The notes beneath the pieces are model-generated. The model was not told the origin of the DNA, did no database searches, and worked only from the letters and a program-made list of their open reading frames with translations. 36,780 nt of DNA from Rhodospirillaceae bacterium (GTDB lineage Bacteria; Pseudomonadota; Alphaproteobacteria; Azospirillales; Azospirillaceae): NCBI GenBank assembly GCA_029267445.1, contig JAJUIU010000039.1, positions 1 to 36,780 on the forward strand, in the 5' to 3' direction. Position numbers and translations under genes: made by a program. Positions within the stretch are counted from its first letter, which is position 1. Every line of letters starts with the position of its first letter. Positions 8,725 through 10,405 of the stretch are shown here, one piece after another.

Positions 8725-8967
8725 GCGGACGTCCTGCTTTTGCTGCGGGTGGGGGCTGCTGTTGGGGGCTGCCGCTGGGTGGATGCGTCGGTGAGTGAAA
8801 TATCCTTGGGGGCCATGCGCCGCAAGGTCAACCCGGGAACACAGATGCCGTTACCGCGACACGCGCGCGGGCCGGGGTAACACCATCCGCGACCTTTCCC
8901 CGCACGCGCCGCTGTGGTCGTATACGCCGGAAAGTCCCATCTCCGCTCGAACGGACAACCACCAAGG

Positions 8968-8982
8968 GGCCACCAAGTGGCC
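8968..8982. promoter_or_regulatory. 15-bp palindrome just upstream of the TetR-like gene
   Basis: GGCCAC-CAA-GTGGCC is a perfect inverted repeat ending 15 bases before the ATG of the TetR-like gene and abutting its ribosome-binding site. Position and symmetry fit an autoregulatory operator, but the site is short and GC-rich, so chance is possible. Confidence 0.3.
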
Positions 8983-8997
8983 GGCAGGGGGCGAACC

Positions 8998-9603
8998 ATG
9001 GCGAGGAAAATCGATCCCGTGCAACGCATCGTCGACGCGGCCATGGCGCTGGCGGCGGAGAAGGGCTGGCGGACCACGACGCTGGCCGACATCGCCGAGC
9101 GCGCGGGCATGTCGCTGGCCGAGTTCTACCGCCACGTCTCGGGCCGGGCCGACATCATCGCCGCCCTGTCGCGCCTGACCGACGCCAAGGTGCTGGGCGG
9201 TGGCGTGGACATGGAGGAGAGGCCGCGCGACCGGCTGTTCGACGTGCTGATGCGCCGGTTCGACGCGCTGGCGCCCTACAAGGAGGGGCTGCGCGCCATC
9301 TGGACCGAGGCCCGCATGGACCCGCTGACGGCGCTGTCCGGACTGCCGCACCTGAAACGGTCCATGGGCTGGATGCTGGAGGCGGCGGGCGTGCATTCCA
9401 GCGGCTTCGCCGGCATGGTCCAGGTGCGCGGCCTCGCCGCCGTCTGGCTGTCGGTCCTGGACACCTGGTTCCAGGACGACAGCGAGGATCTGGCCAAGAC
9501 CATGGCCGCCCTGGACAGCAGGCTTAGACAGGCGGAGGAGCTGTGGGCGTCGGTCCGCCGCCCGTTCGGGGCGTTCCGCCGCCCGGAAGCGCCAGCGGCT
9601 TGA
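8998..9603 (+). CDS. TetR-like / COQ9-like helix-turn-helix protein
   Basis: A 201-residue protein with an N-terminal TetR-type DNA-binding domain (residues 8-52). The TTTLADIAERAGMSLAEFYRHVS stretch at about 26-48 contains the helix-turn-helix. The C-terminal half, with a tryptophan-rich VWLSVLDTWFQDDSEDLAKTMAALDSRL-like segment near 155-180, resembles the C-terminal region of COQ9, a TetR-fold ubiquinone-synthesis protein. It could therefore be a transcription factor or a lipid-binding COQ9-like protein; the well-formed HTH favours a regulator. The ATG is chosen because AGGGGG lies seven bases upstream and the family starts MARK. It stands divergent from rpoH and 139 bases upstream of the phasin gene. 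Confidence 0.8.
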   Translation: MARKIDPVQRIVDAAMALAAEKGWRTTTLADIAERAGMSLAEFYRHVSGRADIIAALSRLTDAKVLGGGVDMEERPRDRLFDVLMRRFDALAPYKEGLRAIWTEARMDPLTALSGLPHLKRSMGWMLEAAGVHSSGFAGMVQVRGLAAVWLSVLDTWFQDDSEDLAKTMAALDSRLRQAEELWASVRRPFGAFRRPEAPAA

Positions 9604-9616
9604 TAATTAACCCCTT

Positions 9617-9633
9617 TTTGTGCACTGCACAAA
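9617..9633. promoter_or_regulatory. Candidate PhaR-type operator (distal)
   Basis: TTTGTGCA-C-TGCACAAA is a perfect 8-bp-arm palindrome with a TGC-N3-GCA core, ending five bases upstream of the phasin -35 box. PhaR repressors of PHA genes in Alphaproteobacteria are reported to recognise TGC-rich inverted repeats of the type CTGC-N3-GCAG. Assignment to PhaR is by motif and location. Confidence 0.55.
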
Positions 9634-9638
9634 GAAGA

Positions 9639-9667
9639 TTGACGAAAAAAGTGGCAAAGTGCATGAT
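9639..9667 (+). promoter_or_regulatory. Sigma-70-like promoter for the phasin gene
   Basis: TTGACG (9639-9644), a 17-base A-rich spacer, then CATGAT (9662-9667), matching consensus at 5 and 4 of 6. The predicted start near 9674 gives a leader of about 70 bases. Two palindromes flank it, one just upstream of -35 and one just downstream of the start. The leader also carries a 15-base tandem duplication beginning ACAGTCCG (9698-9726). Confidence 0.6.
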
Positions 9668-9680
9668 GACGCCACGAAAT

Positions 9681-9695
9681 TGCTGCATCGCAGCA
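9681..9695. promoter_or_regulatory. Candidate PhaR-type operator (proximal)
   Basis: TGCTGC-ATC-GCAGCA is a perfect palindrome containing the exact CTGC-N3-GCAG pattern, placed a few bases downstream of the predicted phasin transcription start. A repressor bound here would block elongation or promoter escape. It shares the TGC-N3-GCA core with the distal site 64 bases away. Confidence 0.55.
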
Positions 9696-9742
9696 TCACA
9701 GTCCGCAACGTGACAGTCCGTAACCGCGCCGGGGAAACGCAC

Positions 9743-10216
9743 ATGGCCCAGACGAAGCCCCCGTTCATGGATTTCGACATGACGAAGTTCATGGACCCGA
9801 CCAAGTTCGCCGACATGACCAAGATGATGGTCGACTTCAAGATGCCCGGTGTCGACATGGAGGCGATGATCGCCGCCCAGCGGAAGAACATCGAGGCGGT
9901 CACCGCCGCGAACCAGCTGGCGTTCGAGGGCGTGCAGGCCGTGATGCGCCGGCAGGCCGAGATCCTGCGCCAGACGATGGAGGAGTCCTCCGCCGTGCTG
10001 AGCCAGATGATGGCCGCCGGTACCCCGGAGGACAAGATCGCCAAGCAGGCCGACATGGTGAAGGCCGCCTTCGAGAAGGCGCTTTCCAACATGAAGGAGC
10101 TGTCGGAGATGGTGGCGAAGTCCAACACCGAGGCCGCCGAGGTGCTCTCCAACCGCATGAAGGAGAGCCTGGAGGAGGTGAAGTCGGCCATGGCGAAGGC
10201 CATGCCGAAGAAGTGA
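9743..10216 (+). CDS. Phasin family protein (PHA granule surface)
   Basis: A 157-residue phasin of the alphaproteobacterial type. Such proteins coat polyhydroxyalkanoate granules, controlling their size and their access to synthase and depolymerase. The N-terminus is unusually rich in Met, Asp, Phe and Lys, with repeated D-x-T-K-F/M units at residues 12-40. The central part (45-130) is amphipathic helix with the common AQRKNIEAVTAANQ signature near 49-62, and the C-terminus is lysine-rich. The ATG follows GGGGAAACGCAC; upstream in-frame codons cover the operators and are non-coding. A strong terminator follows 50 bases downstream, so the gene is monocistronic. Confidence 0.92.
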   Translation: MAQTKPPFMDFDMTKFMDPTKFADMTKMMVDFKMPGVDMEAMIAAQRKNIEAVTAANQLAFEGVQAVMRRQAEILRQTMEESSAVLSQMMAAGTPEDKIAKQADMVKAAFEKALSNMKELSEMVAKSNTEAAEVLSNRMKESLEEVKSAMAKAMPKK

Positions 10217-10268
10217 TCCGCCGCTGGCGCCGCCGCCCGTGAGGGGCGGTGGACGCCGCGCATGCGAG

Positions 10269-10303
10269 AAAGGGCCGCACCCATCCGGGCGCGGCCCTTT
10301 TTT
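10269..10303 (+). terminator. Rho-independent terminator of the phasin gene
   Basis: A perfect 10-bp stem, AAAGGGCCGC (10269-10278) with GCGGCCCTTT (10291-10300), closes a 12-base loop and runs into a stretch of six T (10298-10303). It is the clearest intrinsic terminator in the window. Confidence 0.9.
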
Positions 10304-10405
10304 CGCGTTCACAGCCGGGACCGGCCGGGTCATGCTGGGGACTTGGCTGTTTGCCCAATCGGACAACACTCTGTTGAAGGCTCCTCGAACGACCGGGTGA
10401 CCGCG

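Follow-up and report, generated by a model that had tools for sequence, protein, structure and literature searches.

On the phaP1 promoter of Ralstonia eutropha (Cupriavidus necator) the regulator PhaR leaves two footprints, BS1 and BS2, which lie directly upstream of the -35 hexamer and around the start site (PMC12849132; the literature is cited throughout for those parts of each paper that were available). In Sinorhizobium meliloti the shift caused by PhaR (AniA) is lost once the palindromes are removed or mutated, and the authors confirmed that granules of polyhydroxybutyrate (PHB) draw PhaR off the DNA (PMC12542648); the same titration model has been reviewed for C. necator (PMC9049629). 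For Azospirillum, the available text of three PHB papers (PMC6761214, PMC10383645, PMC10934627) mentions PhaR and no PhaR site, and a literature search with subscription journals mostly outside its coverage found no title or abstract on PhaR sites of Azospirillum phasins. Here a phasin promoter of Rhodospirillaceae bacterium (Azospirillaceae, assembly GCA_029267445.1) is described, which is contained in positions 1 to 36,780 of the forward strand of contig JAJUIU010000039.1; this whole stretch of 36,780 nucleotides is called the window. Two perfect palindromes bracket the promoter, and it is very probable from their sequence and surroundings that both are operators for the repressor PhaR, which would block RNA polymerase sterically until PHB relieves the repression. 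The elements concerned are the following.

9617 to 9633, no strand: predicted distal PhaR box TTTGTGCACTGCACAAA, composed of TTTGTGCA-C-TGCACAAA, a perfect palindrome with arms of 8 and its centre at 9625
9639 to 9644, forward strand: -35 hexamer TTGACG, from promoter prediction
9662 to 9667, forward strand: -10 hexamer CATGAT, with a spacer of 17 from the -35 hexamer
9681 to 9695, no strand: predicted proximal PhaR box TGCTGCATCGCAGCA, composed of TGCTGC-ATC-GCAGCA, a perfect palindrome with arms of 6 and its centre at 9688
9743 to 10216, forward strand: phasin gene of 157 amino acids, Phasin_2 / TIGR01841, from profile matches

The open reading frame at 9743-10216 matched Phasin_2 with 81 bits and TIGR01841 with 89 bits, and the two boxes thus bracket the predicted sigma70 promoter of a PHB granule gene. 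TTGACG-N17-CATGAT at 9639-9667 was the sole sigma70-like promoter found in 9500-10400, as compared to a mean of 0.1 in shuffled sequences. Five bp separate the end of the distal box from the -35 hexamer. Transcription would start near 9674, which would place the proximal box at about +8 to +22. A preliminary description of this DNA had already pointed to both perfect palindromes around the promoter, and they were confirmed at the coordinates listed; the distance of 64 bases given there from centre to centre had to be corrected to 63 bp. It had also recognised the CTGC-N3-GCAG form reported for PhaR in the second palindrome, and only this proximal box has it; the distal box instead reads GTGC-N3-GCAC and fits the consensus of S. 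meliloti and R. eutropha.

As bare palindromes are no rarer in the window than expected by chance, palindromy alone proves nothing. There is no enrichment of the TGCN3GCA core (13 occurrences versus 16.0 expected), perfect palindromes with an N3 centre and arms of at least 6 number 18 (shuffle mean 21.9), and those with an odd centre and arms of at least 8 number four (shuffle mean 1.8). Palindrome rarity was therefore rejected as evidence, since shuffled sequences yield as many. An independent motif was used instead, a symmetric weight matrix from 16 S. meliloti sites in promoters marked 'Efficient' in Table 3 of PMC12542648, which means that they were shifted by purified PhaR; four exoH sites, likewise 'Efficient', were left out as ambiguous. 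This matrix ranks the distal box first (30.8) and the proximal box second (23.9) in the window, with the third-best place at 11.8. In 20 simulated windows the maxima ranged from 6.6 to 22.7, and only the window with 22.7 reached 20. As one simulated window reached this level, one site of this kind might be due to luck, but not plausibly two of them at 63 bp around a phasin promoter. What goes beyond chance is sequence and placement combined, not palindromy. The R. eutropha consensus YTKNTGCRNYGCANMAR has no mismatch to the distal box and one to the proximal box; elsewhere in the window the best places have two. The region of the distal box has 16 consecutive bases, TTGTGCACTGCACAAA, in common with the S. 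meliloti phaP1 site TTATTGTGCACTGCACAAATT, and both boxes show the palindromic TGCRNYGCA core with AT-rich arms that marks a PhaR box.

The gene for the presumptive regulator is present in the same genome. Following a check proposed in the preliminary description, phaR was located at C55:22470-22652, encoding a complete PhaR with both domains (PHB_acc_N, 107 bits; PHB_acc, 66 bits) and scoring 156 bits with the NCBIfam equivalog TIGR01848, for which the cut-off is 109. A weak PhaC_N match below cut-off adjoins phaR on the opposite strand. All four Phasin_2 matches of the genome, including that of C103 which is below the Pfam cut-off, are preceded by a box, with the following matrix scores.

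Window phasin: boxes of 30.8 and 23.9
C29 phasin: boxes of 31.8 and 19.3
C131 phasin: box of 24.4
C103 phasin: box of 22.5

The C29 phasin repeats the whole bracket, namely a box, TTGACC-N18-TATAAG and a second box, with the boxes 59 bp apart. Without mismatch, the 15-mer TTGTGCACTGCACAA is found just twice in the 4.23-Mb genome, in the window and before the C29 phasin. The same palindromes had been expected before phaC and phaR as well, and there the expectation failed: no score above 2.7 was obtained at the main phaC locus, and the best score in the 11.5-kb phaR region is 6.2, with 3.5 adjoining phaR, so that neither has a box. Both window boxes contain TGCRNYGCASMA, a sequence which matches the genome at 51 places versus 16 for the backward control; these matches are not claimed to be a full regulon. 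Two other patterns with one mismatch were discarded for the regulon search as too loose, TGCTGCNNNGCAGCA with 45 places in the genome and TTGCANTGCAA with 21, against 42 for its backward control. A match in C34 scores at most 3.2 by the matrix and is located inside coding DNA, presumably of nuoD. A soxA-like cytochrome gene has a weaker box (19.0) some 165 bp upstream, at C64:19812-19826 (L033 2813-2827), which could be chance.

Conservation was examined in 59 genomes, the own genome included (genus and family labels such as g2 and f1 are those of the tool). A relative of the phasin was detected in 47 of them and phaR also in 47, the two sets being different; all 35 genomes of the family of the window, again with the own genome, contain phaR. 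The phaR survey left out the 10 genomes of a second ortholog search. This second search contributed 10 loci to a set of 39 ortholog loci, in which the other 29 come from the 30 loci of the search in relatives, the thirtieth being the window itself; two of the 39 (L061, L044) duplicate another locus. At least one box scoring at least 11 was found within 350 bp upstream in 38 of the 39 loci and two boxes in 21, while a control stretch downstream contained a box in none of the 39. The palindromes are thus kept upstream of orthologous phasins, which was another check suggested at the outset. Among 16 further phaR-positive loci, which together with four phaR-negative ones were picked by hand, 13 have a strong box. 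Other phasins were covered by 20 Phasin_2 loci from 20 genomes of the family, one per genome, hand-picked from the upper part of the matches; every one of them has a box and 17 have two or more. In two of these, both from genus g2 (L170 and L172), a third box (26.2 and 18.8, respectively) occurs farther upstream, about 131 bp from the bracketing pair.

The position of the distal box relative to the promoter is conserved, too. From 56 loci entered into a two-box count, in which the first box had to reach 12 and the second 8, four without a box of at least 12 (L079, L117, L121, L130) and two duplicates were set aside, leaving 50 distinct loci. A TTGAC hexamer, searched for at 9-23 bp from the centre of the distal box, was found 13-17 bp after this centre in 48 of the 50, the two without one at that distance being L081 and L043, and -10-like hexamers occur at the matching position in many orthologs.

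A regulator encoded next to the phasin was considered as the binding protein in place of PhaR.

8914 to 9603, same strand as the phasin: TetR-family gene with weak similarity to COQ9, directly upstream of the phasin gene

TetR-type regulators generally bind palindromes, and 24 of the 39 ortholog loci have a homolog of this gene before the phasin. The remaining 15 loci have no TetR match, and all 15 still have a box. The C29, C103 and C131 phasins, in whose stretches no TetR match was found, likewise have boxes, and none of the 12 best matches in the window is located before the tetR gene. In addition the matrix had been learned solely from PhaR sites. This neighbourhood test disfavours the TetR-family protein as the binder, which makes its binding to the boxes highly improbable.

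Further results bear on PhaR operators at these promoters, some of them against. One of the 39 ortholog loci stays below threshold, though two box-like sequences are visible by eye, and no strong box was found in three of the 16 further phaR-positive loci (G048, G046 and one of three G015 copies). In favour of PhaR, all four phasin-bearing genomes without phaR (G040, G047, G053, G054) have no TGC-N3-GCA core in the 600 bp upstream of the phasin, their best matrix scores of 8.1 to 13.5 arising without the core; these genomes are, however, small and have a lower G+C content (0.36-0.48), which makes them a weak contrast. A box-like match of 20.8 at C144:11440-11454 (L034 2941-2955) is situated within coding DNA, which we take to be metH, so that boxes scoring this high also arise without a promoter role. 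In favour of paired operators, 34 of the 50 distinct loci have a second box at +42 to +75 bp downstream of the first, versus 0/50 when this interval is mirrored to the upstream side (Wilcoxon p about 1e-9, uncorrected for relatedness), a control which is partly favoured by construction as the first of two boxes was chosen by the best promoter behind it. In the other 16 loci, including the five distinct ones of genus g2 with 6.4 each, the downstream interval scores below 8, and two strong sites are thus not essential. In the main phasin loci of genus g2 (L058-L063) the proximal box, at its usual position, has degenerated to TTGCCGCACCGCAGCGG, and the distal box is still strong. Taking all this together, two-site control by PhaR, as already put forward in the preliminary description, is strongly supported by the phaR gene in the genome, by the matches to PhaR-bound sites and by the recurrence of the boxes before phasins.

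How the two boxes might act together was approached by their spacing. PhaR dimers on both boxes could bridge cooperatively, in a loop of roughly 63 bp or a wrapped complex, and trap the promoter; a role like that of an auxiliary operator of LacI has been raised for R. eutropha phaP1 (PMC12849132). In the 34 two-box loci of the ortholog set the boxes are kept 52-66 bp apart, with 60-63 bp in 22 of them, and the spacings yield a Rayleigh R of 0.41 with p about 0.003, uncorrected for relatedness. Six of these 34 loci have spacings of 56-58 bp, which is half a turn off 62-63. Other phasins have 57-60 bp in 16 of 17 two-box loci and 78 bp in the seventeenth, about 4 bp shorter than the ortholog set, and both values occur within the own genome, 63 bp in the window and 59 bp at the C29 phasin. 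The published S. meliloti spacings are 18 and 28 bp (PMC12542648). The distal box, finally, holds its distance to the -35 hexamer, as promoter geometry alone would demand. A fixed helical phase between the operators, as in a LacI-like looping pair, was not found, and as the spacing varies and is about 4 bp less in other phasins, a loop with both sites on the same face is no general requirement. Looping across about six helical turns, as proposed originally, is accordingly not supported by the spacings, and cooperative bridging of any of these kinds appears unlikely.

Since the bracket persists in spite of a drifting spacing, steric blocking is favoured; it is the simpler explanation and does without a DNA loop of fixed phase. 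One PhaR operator would lie against the -35 hexamer and the other over the start of the transcribed region. As long as PHB is absent, PhaR would fill both operators, probably as dimers, and keep the polymerase off by steric blocking, and the presence of two sites probably raises occupancy. As PHB granules form, PhaR would be drawn to the granule surface, as has been reported in other species, the operators would become empty and the phasin could be made. The phasin would then coat the granules and displace PhaR, such that repression returns, which again has been reported elsewhere. PhaR could also bind the pair and activate the promoter, or do both. Activation by PhaR is documented for R. eutropha phaP3 (PMC12849132), and genes requiring PhaR have also been reported in S. 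meliloti (PMC12542648) and Bradyrhizobium diazoefficiens (PMC6201568). In R. eutropha, however, both boxes of the activated gene are located clearly upstream of its promoter, and it is repression that goes along with boxes at the -35 hexamer and the start site, the arrangement seen here (PMC12849132); activation is very unlikely for the window phasin. Within its untranslated leader, the preliminary description had noted a 15-bp tandem duplication at 9698-9726. The repeat exists, but it is imperfect, and the repeat finder places the copies, which are 80% alike, at 9689-9703 and 9704-9718. This repeat at 9689-9718 and the proximal box overlap, at the right arm of the latter.

Two candidate PhaR targets that had not been expected emerged from the box search as well, one a ParA-family ATPase and the other a small protein of 107 amino acids.

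C13:14597-14611 (L029 4098-4112; L133): predicted PhaR box, score 24.7, before a ParA-family partition ATPase gene which is divergent from sua5
C52:29378-29392 (L032 2879-2893): predicted PhaR box, score 32.8, before the gene of the 107-amino-acid protein; the strongest among the scored stretches of the genome

The ATPase gene at C13:13919-14551 matches NF041546 with 223 bits (cut-off 180), and the centre of its box is 53 bp before the start codon. In 30 loci of this gene, consisting of the best matches in relatives and the own one, a box of at least 11 was found in 11, from genera g1, g2, g3 and g12, as compared to 0/30 for control stretches inside the gene. The ten loci from relatives have this box at 70-96 bp, three more loci score 7.8-9.9 at 72 bp, and the remaining 16 reach at most 8.1 at other positions; locus L154 has no box. 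In the relatives, read by eye, the box abuts a CTTGCC-like (-35-like) hexamer followed by a CACACT-like (-10-like) one, and in the promoter of the own genome such hexamers are not evident. It is conceivable, if rather doubtful, that in the genus of the window and some related genera PhaR also controls this ParA-type ATPase, and that PHB would thereby switch on a machine for the spacing or segregation of granules. A 2025 review on PHB granule positioning, in its available text, names only PhaM, PhaF and PhaH and states that there is no homology to ParA (PMC13052382). The 107-amino-acid protein has no Pfam or NCBIfam match. It has one clear relative among the 59 genomes (G027), where a box of 22.6 is found upstream, too.

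Comparison with the described PhaR systems shows the closest likeness in arrangement to phaP1 of R. eutropha, where the palindromic motif YTKNTGCRNYGCANMAR is placed in the same bracket around the promoter (PMC12849132). This betaproteobacterium differs in a third predicted site within the phaP1 open reading frame, of which there is no counterpart among the 12 best matches of the window. With phaP1 and phaP2 of S. meliloti the window shares the core and the presence of two palindromes per promoter. A further likeness is that S. meliloti has no box before phbC, as is the case here for the main phaC; its phaR region is bound only weakly, and no box was found at phaR in the genome studied here. 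Both S. meliloti sites flank the -35 hexamer, 18 or 28 bp apart, whereas here the whole -35/-10 core is bracketed (PMC12542648). In B. diazoefficiens phaP1 has two PhaR footprints as well, and the consensus TGCRNYGCASMA derived there is the one present in both window boxes, but the sites are 6 bp on either side of the -35 hexamer, unlike the bracket in the window (PMC6201568). The PhaR site of Rhodobacter sphaeroides, CTGCNNNGCAG as quoted in PMC12542648, is fitted exactly by the proximal box, whereas the distal box has GTGC-N3-GCAC in its place. By means of an independent motif and controls across genomes, a likely PhaR operator architecture is thus set out for the phasin promoters of the family of the window and of several named Rhodospirillales. 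The bracket in the window is a well-conserved further example of the known PhaR switch, in an arrangement which has already been published for R. eutropha phaP1.
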